Positions 42,722-55,931 of a stretch of 64,000 nt of DNA are shown here, piece after piece. The position numbers and the translations under genes are program-made. The notes under the pieces were generated by a model. That model did no database searches. It saw nothing but the letters and a program-made list of their open reading frames with translations, and was not told the origin of the DNA. The DNA comes from Cyclobacterium xiamenense (GTDB lineage: Bacteria > Bacteroidota > Bacteroidia > Cytophagales > Cyclobacteriaceae): positions 1 through 64,000 of the forward strand of contig NZ_WIOK01000003.1 in assembly GCF_009467825.1 (NCBI RefSeq). The letters are read 5' to 3'. Each line of letters begins with the position of its first letter. The stretch's first letter is position 1.

Positions 42722-43093
42722 TTACTTGGTGAATTCCACCACCGTCCCACTCACGGTCAGGGTGCGCTTGTAGTAAAAGGGAGGTACCCCACCCACATGT
42801 TCTTCGGTAAGGATATTGGTAAGGGTACGGCTACCGGATGTCAAATCTGCCTCCTTCAGCATGGCCGCATAGGCTTCGTTGTAGAGGTTTTTCCGATTCG
42901 TCCCGCCAAAAATCAATACGTAGTCGACCGATGCCGATCCTTTTACCTGTCCCAGTACCTCAAAATTTTTGCTGCCCAGGTATACTTCGGTGCTGTTTTG
43001 GTTTTGGTTTAAAATCCAGGCCTGATTGACGCCACAAGATCCCAGCCCGATAACTACCATCAGGGCAATAACTGCAATTCGTACGTTTTTCAT
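42722..43093 (-). CDS. DUF6567-family lipoprotein, copy A
   Basis: 123 residues. The signal peptide ends in a lipobox (IGLGSC), followed by VNQAWILNQNQN, the start of the mature domain. The rest is beta-rich with VDYVLIFGGTNRKNLYNEAY. It overlaps the stop of the upstream alcohol dehydrogenase gene by ATGA. A close relative is at 55560-55931 (about 30 differences over 123 positions by eye). The lipid anchor suggests an outer-membrane-associated protein; the function of DUF6567 is unknown. Confidence 0.82.
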   Translation of the reverse strand: MKNVRIAVIALMVVIGLGSCGVNQAWILNQNQNSTEVYLGSKNFEVLGQVKGSASVDYVLIFGGTNRKNLYNEAYAAMLKEADLTSGSRTLTNILTEEHVGGVPPFYYKRTLTVSGTVVEFTK

Positions 43094-46943: not shown

Positions 46944-47402
46944 TTATTTTAAAAACCTTCTTCTGTTACCTCTGCTTGCGTTTGCACCTTTTACATTGCC
47001 GCCTCCCCAGGTAAGGCCGGATTTTCTTTCCCGAAAGGGGGAATTGTTCATGCCCCAACCTTTGAACTTTGATTTTTCACCCGTTAGGCGCTCAATTTTT
47101 GCCGGAGTATCTTGGTAGGTTTTTATTATTCGGTCTATTCTCTTCGCATACCAATACCGGTCTACCATGATGAGCGGAACACATACCAGGGCTAACAACA
47201 GGACTCCTATCACTAGCAATACGGCCGCAAATGGAACAGCCGCAATCCATCCAATGAGACCAATGATCAGCAACAAGCCGCCTAGAATACCGGAACTGTA
47301 GATTATCGTTTTCGTCTGCATCAATGTTTGGTAGGAGCTGCCAAGACCGATTTCGTAGCGCCTGTCGGCAGAAGCTCGCATTTGTCTGGCGGATGGACTC
47401 AT
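46944..47402 (-). CDS. Small two-TM protein of unknown function
   Basis: 152 residues from ATG 47402 (MSPSARQM); the frame could also start at ATG 47321 (MQTKTIIYSS), and a longer version would use TTG at 47417. Two TM segments lie near residues 36-52 and 54-75 (GILGGLLLIIGLIGWIAAV; FAAVLLVIGVLLLALVCVPL). The basic C-terminus contains GMNNSPFRERKSGLTWGGG. It follows the hydratase gene on the same strand. The family is unknown to me. Confidence 0.65.
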   Translation of the reverse strand: MSPSARQMRASADRRYEIGLGSSYQTLMQTKTIIYSSGILGGLLLIIGLIGWIAAVPFAAVLLVIGVLLLALVCVPLIMVDRYWYAKRIDRIIKTYQDTPAKIERLTGEKSKFKGWGMNNSPFRERKSGLTWGGGNVKGANASRGNRRRFLK

Positions 47403-47420
47403 GCCATCAGGCGCCAACGC

Positions 47421-48200
47421 TTAATCTTTTGTAAAATAGGTAGATAGACTGCCTACCCTATCGATTTCGATCGTTACCTCTGTACGCTGTGTAATAGGGA
47501 TCAGCTCGACCGGGGAACCCGGAATAACGAGACTGCCTTTTGCCAAATACGTTCCTCTCTCGGTCAATGAATTGACCAGCCATCTCAGTGAATGTAGCGG
47601 CCCACCCATAATTTCGCTTGCGGGGGCAGACGCGACTAATTTTTTGTTTTTATACACGCTAAATGCCTCTTCATAAAAGCGTAGTTTCTGAGGAGCTGTT
47701 TTTTGGCTCCCGATAAGTAGCCCCGTATGAATGCCGCCGGAACAGATTAGCTCCTGAATCGTTGGAGGCGTAATCCAGAAGTTGAATTCATGAAGTTCGA
47801 TTCCTGGACTCACATAGGCTATTGCTTCGACGAGTGCTGCATCTGTAAGATTTTTACCCTGGAGGTCTTTTCCAAGTTTTAGAACCATCTCCGGTTCTAT
47901 GGCACAGGTAATGTAGTTACTACAGTCAACTAGTCCCTTATTTTCGGTGACATGCGGGTAAAACATCCTCCCATAAATCGGTTCGGTCAAACCAAACTGT
48001 TTCCGGATCGCAGCACTGGTACAGCCGACTTTGAATCCGCATGCCTTTTCGCCGGAAGCCATTCTTTTTTTTGTCACCAGCTCTTGGACACGATAGGCTT
48101 GATCGATGGAAAGTTGGCTTACAACGCGACTACTTCCCTTCCATTTTTTTTCGTAAAAGGAATCGTAAAACCAGCGCGCAATACTTTCCTCGTATTCCAT
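47421..48200 (-). CDS. 2-keto-4-pentenoate hydratase / FAH-fold protein
   Basis: 259 residues. The fumarylacetoacetate hydrolase fold is marked by YRVQELVTKKRMASGEK, the metal-binding IEPEMVLKLGKDL (E-x-E region), and PGIELHEFNFW. Enzymes of this group hydrate 2-oxopent-4-enoates in aromatic catabolism. No meta-cleavage genes are near, so it may instead be an oxaloacetate decarboxylase or similar. The AT-rich composition matches its neighbours. Confidence 0.85.
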   Translation of the reverse strand: MEYEESIARWFYDSFYEKKWKGSSRVVSQLSIDQAYRVQELVTKKRMASGEKACGFKVGCTSAAIRKQFGLTEPIYGRMFYPHVTENKGLVDCSNYITCAIEPEMVLKLGKDLQGKNLTDAALVEAIAYVSPGIELHEFNFWITPPTIQELICSGGIHTGLLIGSQKTAPQKLRFYEEAFSVYKNKKLVASAPASEIMGGPLHSLRWLVNSLTERGTYLAKGSLVIPGSPVELIPITQRTEVTIEIDRVGSLSTYFTKD

Positions 48201-48322
48201 GAGAAGATACGTTTTTTAAATTTTACCGCAAAGCAATTACCCAATTATACACAATATCCGGAAAAAGAAGTCGCTGATTGCAAGATTGTGTGCGTTTGTT
48301 CACCGTTCGTCCGTTTCCCTTT

Positions 48323-48772
48323 TCATCCGCTTTTACCTTCATAGAGGGTAGCAGCCAGCTTTTCCCGGTACTTTTTCTCCAGCGCCCGTGCAAAGGCAGC
48401 ACCATCGTTCCGCAGCTGCTGCATGGACTCTCCCTCGACAATGTTCGGGTGAATATCCCGCAGGTGACTATCACTCCAGGTAGCTAGCGCTACCAGGATG
48501 GGAGTCAATGCCAATCCCTTATCGGTCAGCAAATAGAGATTGGTCTTTTTGTTATTCGGGCGTTTCGCCTTGGTGACGATACCCAATTCTTCCAGGATTT
48601 TCAGCTTGGCCGAAAGAATATTGGTAGCGATGGCTTCTTCACTTTCCGTGAAGTCCTTAAACGTCTCTTTGCCCTCGATGAGCATTTGTTTTACAATCAC
48701 CAATATCCACTTATCTCCCAAAACATCAAGGGCGGAAGTAAAGGGGCAATTGCATCTGAATTCCTGTCGCAT
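48323..48772 (-). CDS. HxlR-family transcriptional regulator
   Basis: 149 residues. The HxlR winged helix is clear: CPFTSALDVLGDKWILVIVKQML (about 10-32), the LSAKLKILEELGIV recognition region and the RPNNKKTNLYLLTDKG wing. Two Cys near the N-terminus (C8 and C10) suggest a redox- or electrophile-responsive type. It is transcribed divergently from the NTF2-like lipoprotein gene; a shared palindromic promoter region (48849-48875) makes autoregulation and control of that gene likely. Confidence 0.9.
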   Translation of the reverse strand: MRQEFRCNCPFTSALDVLGDKWILVIVKQMLIEGKETFKDFTESEEAIATNILSAKLKILEELGIVTKAKRPNNKKTNLYLLTDKGLALTPILVALATWSDSHLRDIHPNIVEGESMQQLRNDGAAFARALEKKYREKLAATLYEGKSG

Positions 48773-48827
48773 GGGGAAGGGAGTTAATTAATATTACTTG
48801 CAAAATGAAATTAATTTGATTTATTGC

Positions 48828-48875
48828 TTGCATTTTAAAAGTTATATTTTACTTTTGCTTGCGAAACAAAAGTAA
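48828..48875. promoter_or_regulatory. Divergent promoters within a palindrome, HxlR / NTF2-like gene
   Basis: TTG (48828-48830) - 19 bases - TACTTTTG (48850-48857) is a complete Bacteroidota-type promoter toward the NTF2-like gene. The mirror TACTTTTG on the minus strand is at 48874-48867, with a TTG complement (CAA, 48894-48896) also 19 bases away, toward the HxlR gene. The two -7 boxes are arms of a perfect 9-bp inverted repeat TTACTTTTG-N9-CAAAAGTAA (48849-48857, 48867-48875), a ready operator for the dimeric HxlR protein. Confidence 0.6.
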
Positions 48876-48901
48876 TAATTAATTATCAACGCACAAAATC
48901 A

Positions 48902-49792
48902 ATGAAAAAATCAATCGGCGTACTGCTGCTGTCAGGTATTCTCGCTTCCTGCGGCAGCAATCCATCCAAATCGATCAGCGAGGACGATTCCATAACTACT
49001 TCAACCATGACTAACAAAGAGATTGTAGGCACTTTCTTGGGTGCTGTTTTGACTGGTGACACCACAACCATGCATGAATTGGCCAACGCGGATTACATCC
49101 AGCACAACCCATTTATCCCGACCGGCTTGGCGCCCTTTATCGGAATGCTGCCCGTATTGCAGGAACACGGGACAACCGCTGAAAACATTCGGATGTTTCA
49201 GGATGGACAGTATGTATTTATGCACAATATCTGGCGAAACGCGGTACCTTTTGGGGCAAACGAGATGGTGTCGTTTGATATTATTCGCCTGGACGATAAC
49301 GGAAAAGTAGCCGAACATTGGGATGCCATGACCCCGGTGGTGAAAGAAACGGCAAGCGGAAGGACGCAGACTGACGGTCCAACGACCGCAGAAGATTTGG
49401 CCAAGACGGAGGAAAACAAAGCCATCGCCAAAGCCATGGTGGAGGATATTCTAATGGGTAAAAACCCAAACAAAATCACCGATTACATCAGTGCGGAGCA
49501 ATACGACCAACACAATCCCGGTATAACCGATGGATTGGACGGTATCCTGGAAGCCGTCGCCTACCTTACTTCCCAAAACAACATGTTCCAATACACAAAA
49601 ATACATAAGGTATTGGGTGAAGGTAATTTTGTACTAACCGTAAGCGAGGGGATATGGAACGGAACCACCAACGTCTTTTACGATTTACTACGCTTTGAAA
49701 ACGGAAAAGCCGTGGAACATTGGGACGTGATTCAGCCCATTCCTACCGAAGGACTGGCGAACGACAATGGAATGTTCGGATTTGACCAGTAG
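48902..49792 (+). CDS. Lipoprotein with two NTF2/SnoaL-like domains
   Basis: 296 residues. A lipobox (LASC, near residue 16) follows the signal peptide. The mature protein has two copies of an NTF2-like cone fold, about 40-165 and 180-290, each with a conserved IQHNP or DQHNPGI His region (ADYIQHNPFIPTG; AEQYDQHNPGITDG) and a long helix. SnoaL-like pockets bind small hydrophobic ligands or catalyse isomerisation. It is probably under control of the divergent HxlR regulator, possibly responding to a reactive compound. Confidence 0.87.
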   Translation: MKKSIGVLLLSGILASCGSNPSKSISEDDSITTSTMTNKEIVGTFLGAVLTGDTTTMHELANADYIQHNPFIPTGLAPFIGMLPVLQEHGTTAENIRMFQDGQYVFMHNIWRNAVPFGANEMVSFDIIRLDDNGKVAEHWDAMTPVVKETASGRTQTDGPTTAEDLAKTEENKAIAKAMVEDILMGKNPNKITDYISAEQYDQHNPGITDGLDGILEAVAYLTSQNNMFQYTKIHKVLGEGNFVLTVSEGIWNGTTNVFYDLLRFENGKAVEHWDVIQPIPTEGLANDNGMFGFDQ

Positions 49793-50143
49793 AACAGGGT
49801 AAGACAATGACCGATCTGCAGGTTTCAACGGTAGGGCGGATCTTGTCCATTCTTCCCCTCAGGCTCCACGGACTTGACGTGCTGTTCCCGAGGAAGGCCC
49901 GATGGATTACGAACCGGGTATTGCCTTTTTGGGGCGTAAAAGCCCAAGCAGCAAAGGCCGCACGAACGAAAGACAAGCAAGGCCGGGGGCCAGGGGCTTT
50001 GTGGCGGTTGCCGTAGGGGCAATTTATCGCATGGGTCTGGAGCTTACCGCCCGCCAGGCCTTGCACTTGGTTTTCGGAGCCGTTACCATTCTCAATTATC
50101 CGGCATGAACCTAATCACATTTTAACCAATAAAAACCATCCAA
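49793..50143. other. Intergenic region of about 350 bases between NTF2-like and SDR genes
   Basis: No ORF with convincing protein character is present. A short frame ending at 50108 (GARGFVAVAVGAIYRMG) has a hydrophobic, membrane-like look and could be the tail of a decayed small membrane protein, but nothing supports a start. Confidence 0.4.
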
Positions 50144-51013
50144 ATGAAGACAATCATCATCACCGGTAGCAGTAACGGCTTTGGCTTACAGGCCGCAAAG
50201 GATTTTGCCGATAAGGGCTACCAGGTATTTGCCACCATGCGAAACCCAGACGGGAAAAACGCGGCAAAAAAATCCGAACTCTTAGCCCATTCCTCTCGCA
50301 TCCATGTGGTAGATATGGACGTGGCGGAGGAAATGTCCGTACAGCTGGCCATGGAAAACATCCTCTCGGCAACAGACACGATCGATATCTTGCTCAACAA
50401 TGCGGGCATCATGTATCTCGGCATTACCGAGGCATTTAGTGTGGCTCAGGCTCGTTTCCAAATGGAGACCAATTATTTCGGTGCGATCAGAACCATGCAA
50501 GCAGTACTTCCCACGATGCGAAAGGCCGGTTCGGGCTTAATCATCAACACGTCTTCGCTGGTAGGGCGCATATCGCCACCGTTTTTCGGAACATACACCG
50601 CTACCAAACACGCCCTGGAAGGGTATTCCCAAGCCCTGCGATACGAGGTTTCGCCCTTTGGGATCGATGTGGTGCTGGTCGAACCCGGCCCCTTTGGGAC
50701 AGGATTATTGGGTTCAGGTCAGGCTCCGGACCACGAAGGCGTGTTGGAAACCTATGGAGAACTTGCCGGTGTTCCTGGGGCGATGGGTGAAAACTTTACA
50801 CAACTGCTGCAGAGCGAAGCGGCACCCGACCCCCAGTGGGTGGTGGATGCCTATTTGAATCTGGCGGAAATGGCTTTTGGCAAGAGGCCCACCCGTACCG
50901 TGGTGGGGATCACCTGGGGGGTGGATAAAATCAATGAATTGACCCAGCCCCTTCAGGACCAGTTGCTCACAGAAATGCAATTGGACGCCATCCTTGGTGG
51001 AGCCTCTGCCTGA
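50144..51013 (+). CDS. Short-chain dehydrogenase/reductase
   Basis: 289 residues. The cofactor-binding TGSSNGFG (residues 7-14), NNAGIMYLG, and the catalytic S-Y-K set (INTSSLVGR, YTATKHALEGYS) are complete, so a classical SDR. The substrate is unknown. It lies on the same strand as the NTF2-like lipoprotein gene but 350 bases away, so joint regulation by HxlR is possible only if transcription reads through. Confidence 0.9.
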   Translation: MKTIIITGSSNGFGLQAAKDFADKGYQVFATMRNPDGKNAAKKSELLAHSSRIHVVDMDVAEEMSVQLAMENILSATDTIDILLNNAGIMYLGITEAFSVAQARFQMETNYFGAIRTMQAVLPTMRKAGSGLIINTSSLVGRISPPFFGTYTATKHALEGYSQALRYEVSPFGIDVVLVEPGPFGTGLLGSGQAPDHEGVLETYGELAGVPGAMGENFTQLLQSEAAPDPQWVVDAYLNLAEMAFGKRPTRTVVGITWGVDKINELTQPLQDQLLTEMQLDAILGGASA

Positions 51014-51123
51014 CCGATCATCGGTCAACACATTCATCCCATCACAAGGGCTTCGGCTCTTGTGATTTTTTTTGTGGTTCCCGTTAACCAATTGGTCTGG
51101 CAACCTGCCCTTGCGCACGGCTC

Positions 51124-52251
51124 CTAATGCGCCAAAAACGGAAGGCCAAATTTCGCCCCCAATTCCTGGCACGATTTTTTGAAATAGGATTGCCATACAG
51201 AAAAAGCAGGTCGTTCCTCTCCATTTTCATCGAGCAGACCCGTATCCCTCCATAGCTGTCCGATATCCCTTACTTCATCGGGAAAGGTTTCCCAAAGCGC
51301 ATCGAAATCCCGATGCGCCCACCAGATGATAAATTCGTAGCCCTGGGAGTCGGCATTTTCAAGGACTGTTTCCAGGTAAGCGCGTTGCTCGTTTTCGGTT
51401 CCCTCAATAGAGACGTTGAGGTTTGGAATCAGCAGGTTTTGCGCAATATGTGCCGTTTCCACCAATGCAATTGGGGCGATCGCCTGCTTGTGTAAAAACT
51501 CCAGCGCCCGCTGAAAGTCGGTATTTGTACGCAAATTTTTCAAAAATGGGTAAAAACTAACTGCCACAAAGTCATTCTGATTTATGTGGTTCATGATGTC
51601 CTCAACATGGCTTTGCGGATCAGAAACGTCTGCCTCGTAAAGATTATGCAGCGATATGGATTCGGATATTTTCAATGCAGGGTACAACTGCCTAATCCTG
51701 GATTTAACATCCGTGATTAGGTTTCTATAGGCATCCCATTTTTCCGGAGATCTCAGTTTCAATTCGTTGACTTCAATACCAATGACCAAATAATCTGGTT
51801 TAAACTCGCGAACCAAATAGCGGATATGTTTGAAATATCCCTCTTTTATCGCGGAATCATCCAGGCGGGCGTAGGCGGGCGTTGCGCCGCTAAAATCAGC
51901 AGCAAGTTCCGATCTGTTTGCGTCTAATACGCTGACGGAAAGCAACTATTGCTTTCCGGAGATTTTTCGATTTACCCTTCCGGAGATTTCGTTTATAAAT
52001 GCTACCGGTAACGGCTGCTCATTTATCCAGGCATTCCAAGGGATCGCGGTATCCAGGTGTTCCGCGTAGATATCCGCATTGGCTGCGATAAACGAATACG
52101 TATCGGTTACATCTTGCGACCGGGGGCCAAAACTCCAGGTAGTAAAGCCCATGTCAAACTTTCTGCCCTTTTCCAGGTCAACCGTCGGTTCGTTCTCCGA
52201 GCAGTTACTCAGTAGTAATAGCGGCAGGATAGCAAATAGGTTCGTTCTCAT
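51124..52251 (-). pseudogene. GH53-like TIM-barrel glycosidase, interrupted by in-frame TAG
   Basis: The frame from ATG 52251 encodes a signal or lipoprotein-like N-terminus (LLLLSNC) and a barrel start (FDMGFTTWSFGPRSQDV), then meets TAG at 51948-51946 and continues in the same frame without further stops to 51124, for about 376 residues in all. The downstream half carries candidate catalytic acids in VIGIEVNEL and PIALVETAHIA, the spacing of the acid/base and nucleophile in GH53 (arabinogalactan endo-1,4-galactanase)-like enzymes. The stop is therefore a lesion, a sequencing error or a recoded codon. It lies exactly in the loop of a perfect 10-bp hairpin. GH53 is inferred; another clan A glycosidase is possible. 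Confidence 0.7.
51936..51958 (-). repeat. Perfect 10-bp hairpin with the in-frame TAG as its loop
   Basis: CGGAAAGCAA and its reverse complement TTGCTTTCCG flank the three bases TAG at 51946-51948. The stem is perfect and the loop equals the premature stop codon. Confidence 0.9.
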
Positions 52252-52524
52252 CGGTTTGTTTCATCTCGCTCATACTTGCATTAATCTATATTTGGAACGT
52301 ACGTTCTATAAACAAACAATGGCTTATCGTTCTCAAATAAACCTATTCCCACAAAACCGCTCGGATCCGTTGCTACCCTTCAAGAACCTACCCAAGAGCA
52401 CCCCCCGTATAAGTCAAAATTTTTTTACGCCTGCTACGAGAGGTTCCTACTGGGCCTGAGATATTAAATTCCCCGATACCTGTTGCGAGGGCTTTGAATC
52501 ACCTATTCCGCAGGGTTGGCCAAA

Positions 52525-53481
52525 CTATTTCGCCGCATCCCTCCCTTTTTTTATCAAAGCCTTTTTTGCCTGGACGACATCCACCATGTCCAAAAACCGA
52601 TTTTCGGAGTCAAGCTCCGGAATGAGTTGCTCGTTACTAAGGAGTATTTTTTCTGCCAGGTATTCCGTTGAGGCAGTTTCCACACTTCGAAGGACATCCG
52701 TCCGTATCCACTCTCCGCAGATCTCTCTAAGTTCGTTGATATCCAGAAATCGGGCCTTTTCCAGCGTCGTCTGGTCTTTCAGGAGCGCCCATCCTTTTTC
52801 TATTTCCTGGGCTGCATGCGGGTCCACCCCAGGCCCTGCTTGTTGGGGATATTCTTTCTGAATACCTTTTAAAAAATGCTGGACCAGTTGGGTGATCTTC
52901 CAGGAATCGGCCTGCTTCAAACAGGTATCCCCTTCTGGACAAACTGCCAACAAGGCCTCCGAATAGGCCCTGCACAGCTCCGGAAAACGATCCGACAGCT
53001 GCATCCGCAAGCTGCTGGAATCCACGTAACCGATAAATTTTTTGTGTAGGGAATCATGGGAGTCGACAAACACCCAGTAGTGAATCCCTCTTGCCTTTGA
53101 CAAGATTGTAGAGAAAATGTACAATCGCGATGTAAGCCAGGCCTTTCCTCCGTAGAGGTCAATGCTTGCATAATCGTAGCTGCCTTCTTTACTGAACTGG
53201 TCCATCAGGTCCATGACACCGCTGGAAAAGTCATCGGACTTTACGCCGGTCCGAATGTCCCCTACGTATTCATTGCTCCAAGAGGAGGAAAATTCTTTTG
53301 CCGTTTCAAATTCTAATTCGATACCCATTGCGCCGATTTTGGTGGTCCGCTCCACCAATTGGGGGATGTATTTTCTCAAAAAGAACAAGATAAGCAATAC
53401 GGTAATGGGCCAAACCAATTCCTGAAGCAATGGAATCCAGGTATCCAGGGAGCTTAAAGGTGTCATTTTGGAAGCGTACAT
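52525..53481 (-). CDS. Membrane-anchored protein of an unrecognised family
   Basis: 318 residues. One TM helix lies near the N-terminus (about 13-38, LVWPITVLLILFFLRKYI), then a cytoplasmic domain of about 270 residues. The middle contains YDYASIDLYGGKAWLTSRLYIFSTILSKARGIHYWVFVDSH, with GKAWLTSRLYIFS as its best-marked motif. The C-terminal 100 residues are helical. I have seen related motifs in unannotated membrane proteins of other bacteria, but I know of no function. It stands alone, with a sulfonate-type or defence role purely speculative. Confidence 0.75.
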   Translation of the reverse strand: MYASKMTPLSSLDTWIPLLQELVWPITVLLILFFLRKYIPQLVERTTKIGAMGIELEFETAKEFSSSWSNEYVGDIRTGVKSDDFSSGVMDLMDQFSKEGSYDYASIDLYGGKAWLTSRLYIFSTILSKARGIHYWVFVDSHDSLHKKFIGYVDSSSLRMQLSDRFPELCRAYSEALLAVCPEGDTCLKQADSWKITQLVQHFLKGIQKEYPQQAGPGVDPHAAQEIEKGWALLKDQTTLEKARFLDINELREICGEWIRTDVLRSVETASTEYLAEKILLSNEQLIPELDSENRFLDMVDVVQAKKALIKKGRDAAK

Positions 53482-55559: not shown

Positions 55560-55931
55560 TTACTTGGTAAACTCTACCACCGTCGCACTTACCGTGATGG
55601 TTCGTTTGTAGTAAAATGGGGGCACTCCACCTATTTGCTCTTCGGTTAGAATATTGGTAAGGGTTCGCGATCCGCGGTTCAGATCGGCCTCTTCAATCAT
55701 GGCGGAGTATGCTTCGTTAAACAAATTCCTTCGATTCTTTCCCCCGAAAATGAGTACGTAGTCTACCTCGGCAGCTCCCTTTACCTGACCCAGTACCTGA
55801 AAGTTATTGCTTCCAAGATTTACCTGGGTGTTGTTTTGATTCTGGTTGAGTATCCAGGCCTGATTGACTCCACAGGAGCCCAAACCAAAGATAAGAGCCA
55901 AGCCAAAAATAGCGGTTCTCGTTTTTTTCAT
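55560..55931 (-). CDS. DUF6567-family lipoprotein, copy B
   Basis: 123 residues. As in copy A at 42722-43093, the lipobox is FGLGSC and the mature protein begins VNQAWILNQNQN, and the two C-termini share PPFYYKRT-TVS-TVVEFTK. The two copies are far more similar in the second half than at the signal peptide. It stands alone, bounded by non-coding DNA, whereas copy A is part of an operon. Duplicate copies may be functionally redundant. Confidence 0.82.
   Translation of the reverse strand: MKKTRTAIFGLALIFGLGSCGVNQAWILNQNQNNTQVNLGSNNFQVLGQVKGAAEVDYVLIFGGKNRRNLFNEAYSAMIEEADLNRGSRTLTNILTEEQIGGVPPFYYKRTITVSATVVEFTK

Follow-up and report, generated by a model that had tools for sequence, protein, structure and literature searches.

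A GH53-like lipoprotein gene of Cyclobacterium xiamenense is interrupted by an in-frame TAG that makes up the entire 3-base loop of a perfect 10-bp inverted repeat, and the best single account of this stop, which we hold to be somewhat likelier to be right than wrong, is that a template switch inverted the loop, so that a former leucine codon now reads as a stop. The window, i.e., the whole stretch of 64,000 nucleotides that was analysed, corresponds to positions 1-64000 of contig C40, in a draft genome of 5.78 Mb (97 contigs, rated 99.99% complete and 0.51% contaminated). Judged by its sequence, the gene is nonsense-broken, with a presumed loss of function. The features on which the argument turns are the following:

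47313-52543: stretch of about 5.2 kb holding the broken gene, absent from the sister genomes G003, G006, and G004
52251-51124, minus strand: broken GH53-like lipoprotein gene, 376 codons including the internal and the terminal TAG
52251-51946, minus strand: upstream fragment, the first 101 codons with a lipoprotein-type signal, without a Pfam match of its own (Pfam search)
51958-51949, minus strand: left arm of the perfect inverted repeat, CGGAAAGCAA (read directly from the sequence)
51948-51946, minus strand: loop, consisting of the in-frame TAG; 58 of 74 homologues have Leu here (sequence and homologue alignment)
51945-51936, minus strand: right arm, TTGCTTTCCG; codons 103-107 identical to the homologue L081 at 15 of 15 bases (sequence and comparison)
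51945-51124, minus strand: downstream fragment, with the Glyco_hydro_53 match and the conserved Glu-containing stretches IEVNE and VETAH (Pfam search and alignment)

The frame runs from an ATG at 52251-52249 to a terminal TAG at 51126-51124, and its downstream half matches Glyco_hydro_53 (PF07745) weakly and partially, at 28.3 bits against a cut-off of 24 (E 1.1e-6). A profile built from 14 relatives matches solved endo-1,4-beta-galactanases, the best being PDB 7osk (E 2.4e-5), which likens the protein to the GH53 endo-beta-1,4-galactanases. However, although intact relatives score 29.1 and 27.2 bits against the same family, the nearest one (L081, also intact) reaches only 17.5 bits, under the cut-off, and we therefore regard the group as divergent, GH53-like, and placed at the edge of the family, with beta-1,4-galactanase activity as a family-based prediction. 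IEVNE and VETAH, which are probably the catalytic stretches from what is known of the clan, are both encoded past the internal TAG, so that a product terminating there would be without either. The gene differs at four of the 71 residues conserved in at least 95% of sequences, a fraction that places it 10th among 62 sequences, and hence gives no sign of excess or prolonged decay.

The codon at the stop position was compared across 88 homologue loci, reduced to 74 distinct ones after the removal of 14 duplicates. All 74 have a sense codon there, encoding mostly Leu (58) and otherwise Phe (6), Val (5), or Ile (5), and the leucine codons are TTA (20), TTG (11), CTT (9), CTA (7, including the homologue L082), CTG (7), and CTC (4). 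A single frame spans the site in each of the 27 homologues checked for it (two of them frameshifted near the 3' end), which rules out two separate genes. The original prediction of a lesion within one enzyme frame is thus borne out, no homologue stopping at this point, as is its description of the TAG as the loop of a perfect 10-bp repeat at 51936-51958. Four further distinct homologues are broken: a frameshift disrupts each of L013, L109, and L025 (identical with L127), and an unrelated TAG disrupts L082 (see below); some of these come from metagenome assemblies, where errors are possible.

The nearest homologues are L081, from Ulvibacterium marinum, and L082, from an uncultured member of the Flavobacteriaceae, which read TTA and CTA at the site, respectively, and beside which the gene falls in a tree with moderate support (86/83). 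The closest homologues, which are at most 73% identical and none of which has identical arms, do not allow the ancestral codon to be reconstructed. No relative closer for this purpose was found in overlapping samples comprising 12 genomes of the same genus (its own included), 390 from the same family, 395 from the same class, and 35 from the family of L035. Counting its own genome each time, the gene was detected in 6 of the 99 relatives searched, in 38 of the 390 family genomes, and in 16 of the 395 class genomes, some of these matches being weak; it was detected in none of the 11 congeners. When 84,980 species were scanned by alignment, 50 loci emerged, and a single-protein scan of genome contigs found no relative.

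In place of the 5.2 kb stretch, the three sister genomes carry 0.8-0.93 kb of other DNA, between flanks that match at 83-90%. The gene was likely gained from elsewhere, to judge from this comparison, the alternative being a loss in the sisters. The stretch also contains a 259-aa ORF without a Pfam match, an HxlR regulator, a SnoaL-like protein, and a short-chain dehydrogenase. Elsewhere in the window there are two related small lipoprotein-like genes (42722-43053 and 55560-55931), and the sister genomes have both as a pair.

Across the 291,926 bases of the contig, no hairpin other than CGGAAAGCAA-TAG-TTGCTTTCCG combines arms of at least 10 bases with a loop of 3, and five Markov-1 simulations of equal length yielded none each. 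Either strand adopts this hairpin when folded as single-stranded DNA, at -10.5 and -10.9 kcal/mol, and none of 200 shuffles per strand was as stable. An exact 12-base direct repeat, AAATCTCCGGAA, lies at 51989-51978 and 51965-51954, its copies 24 bases apart, upstream of the left arm and overlapping it.

Under the preferred reading, the GH53-like gene would have been acquired first, and replication would then have switched strands across the palindrome (codons 98-106) and back again, so that the 3-base loop ended up inverted, a coding-strand CTA (Leu) became TAG, and the gene was inactivated. CTA and TAG are reverse complements of each other, and the left arm together with the stop (C-GGA-AAG-CAA-TAG) is the exact reverse complement of CTA followed by the right arm (CTA-TTG-CTT-TCC-G). 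A single switch could thus write all 13 bases, and may in the same event have brought the left arm into line with the right. Two homologues, L098 and L116, read CAA-CTA-TTG at the site. Because the loop bases have no counterpart in the arms, TAG cannot arise from one arm serving as template for the other; of the strand-switching previously proposed for this site, the switch itself is favoured by our analysis, whereas plain correction of a quasi-palindrome falls short, being unable to write a 3-base loop.

The differences around the stop are also unevenly distributed. Codons 100-102 differ from L081 and from L082 at six of nine bases, and 4.7% and 4.3% of three-codon windows, respectively, are as extreme, while codons 103-107 show zero and one difference in 15 bases from the same two relatives. 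The left arm is thus unlike both nearest relatives and the right arm the same or one base off, a pattern compatible with change in either direction; against the next four relatives, codons 100-102 are unexceptional, with 15-37% of windows as extreme.

Similar events are known from other systems. In Saccharomyces cerevisiae, Abraham and Hazkani-Covo (2021; PMC8604942) describe ten coding-sequence spacer inversions, with arms only above 9 bp and spacers of 2-5 bases, which they ascribe to intermolecular template switching; two of them (PIM1 and YBZ1) have the same 10/3 geometry, and the spacers of SPO75 and YBZ1 flip-flop between two amino acids. The likeness lies in the perfect 10-bp arms, in the 3-base spacer within a coding sequence, and in a spacer that reverse-complements a plausible parental codon. 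However, the yeast parental forms are present in sister strains and the changes tabulated in that study are replacements, with no stop among them, whereas here the organism is a bacterium, the outcome a stop, and the parental codon a presumed one. In Escherichia coli, thyA and lacZ reporters record template switching at quasipalindromes, where a strand switch at inverted repeats gives clustered changes and perfected arms (PMC7202029), as could be the case here. Unlike the event we propose, quasipalindrome correction as described there fixes the arms and alone cannot write an unpaired loop, and the perfect arms seen here could be either original or corrected. As far as titles and the openings of abstracts in the open-licence literature go, no bacterial loop inversion creating a stop was found.

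The strongest competitor, which we consider a serious possibility but clearly the less probable one, is that the palindrome already existed by codon symmetry and that an ordinary T-to-A substitution changed a central leucine TTG into TAG. The left arm encodes Gly-Lys-Gln and the right arm Leu-Leu-Ser, residues whose codons can be mutually reverse-complementary, so the hairpin is far less surprising here than it would be in arbitrary DNA. Given Ser-Gly-Lys-Gln / Leu-Leu-Ser(-Val) and the codon usage of the contig, the probability of the 10-bp palindrome is about 8.2e-4, against 9.5e-7 for random letters, i.e., the encoded residues raise it some 860-fold. In 60 homologues, related to one another, the site is self-complementary at 3.6 of 10 positions compared with 2.7 for other codons. 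Taken together, the favoured palindrome and the self-complementary homologue sites suggest that the hairpin may well predate the stop. The earlier remark that simple random nonsense is not expected to strike the centre of a hairpin is therefore sound in general but overstated for this gene, in which conserved residues favour the palindrome.

The starting codon also speaks for a substitution and weighs against the inversion. TTG is the second commonest leucine codon of the contig, 2.8 times as frequent as CTA (23.9% vs. 8.5%), it is found at the site in 11 homologues vs. 7 for CTA, and L081 has TTA. Moreover, L082 (L082:3665-4744) acquired its own TAG independently, at a Glu codon and with no notable hairpin (best arm 5). 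Nevertheless, a point mutation leaves the position of the stop at the very centre of the hairpin as a coincidence, and the cluster of left-arm differences next to an unchanged right arm without explanation.

A comparison of hairpin loops also covered stretches of four genomes within the genus, its final version being stricter than the earlier ones. For arms of at least 8 bases there were 91 loop comparisons, ten of them with two or more changes, and two of these ten were exact reverse complements (TGGC/GCCA and ATTT/AAAT), whereas arms of only 6-7 bases yielded none in 129 and random blocks 2 in 618 (one-sided Fisher p 0.0009 with both controls pooled, in a six-pair comparison that was post hoc and in which genome pairs are not independent). 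Both candidate orthologous inversions come from one pair of sister species, G003 and G006. The first, in an intergenic-looking position of G003 (C44, around 92896; index 159795 of the joined stretch), reads GAATAGGT-TGGC-ACCTATTC vs. GAATAGAT-GCCA-ACCAATTC in G006, with all four loop bases inverted within an 820-base alignment otherwise 94.5% identical, and has changed arms too. In comparisons with the genome of the window itself (18, arms of at least 8), none of the four multi-change loops was a reverse complement, and an earlier comparison of hairpin loops likewise gave no inversion. A second contig pair (G003:C11 and G006:C11) added almost no comparable hairpins. Within the genus, point changes in conserved hairpin loops outnumber inversions, which favours the substitution; the enrichment among multi-change loops, for its part, would lend mild support to loop inversion.

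Two other cases were set aside. An apparent inversion AAAA/TTTT was dropped, as it belongs to a dispersed repeat that is missing from the actual orthologous position in G006, and a GGC/GCC single-change case was left uncounted, being indistinguishable from a point change. The dispersed repeat (G003:C44:23874) carries a TCCCCCTCCTG hairpin whose loop differs between two copies (AAAA vs. TTTT), these being members of a repeat family and not orthologues.

The reverse complements of all three stop codons are sense codons (TTA, CTA, and TCA), so that any such codon placed in a hairpin loop could be toggled. As a variant of loop inversion, and counted within it, the loop could act as a reversible codon-sized switch, flipped by repeated template switching with no recombinase: cells with CTA would encode Leu and make the full enzyme, and cells with TAG would be off. 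We consider this improbable.

Hairpins are error-prone in sequencing and amplification. A sequencing or assembly error at this one could have produced the TAG, the call resting on a draft assembly of 97 contigs, but such an error would need to create a perfect palindrome and an in-frame stop with no frameshift, in a 292 kb contig of an assembly with the completeness and contamination given above, and we find it very unlikely. Most doubtful of all is the structured or programmed readthrough once offered as an alternative, by which the full enzyme would still be made: the frame past the TAG is indeed intact, and the few changes at highly conserved residues amount to no excess decay, but none of the 74 homologues has a stop at the site, the 10-bp stem is absent from the minimum-energy RNA fold of one 100-nt stretch around the stop, known readthrough-stimulating structures are located downstream of the stop, and TAG is an ordinary stop here, ending 39 of the 174 contig ORFs of at least 200 codons and the broken gene too, a usage that, with no CUA anticodon among the 36 tRNA genes found (150 of 263 candidates scored; an incomplete set, as no Ile tRNA was found), also led us to reject TAG recoding.

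Were the point mutation the true origin of the stop, this would be an ordinary pseudogene. Most likely, however, we are seeing a known kind of mutation, a copying slip that flips a loop, with an unusual outcome, the conversion of a leucine codon into a stop. If loop inversion is the correct reading, a bacterial gene would have been broken in one step by inverting a single codon in a hairpin loop, an event that would be missed by pipelines scoring three adjacent changes as separate substitutions. Reversion would also be possible, with the hairpin determining how often it occurs, and some apparent pseudogenes would then be off states. Conserved residues with mirror-image codons, such as Gly-Lys-Gln and Leu-Leu-Ser, would then create mutable palindromes inside genes.
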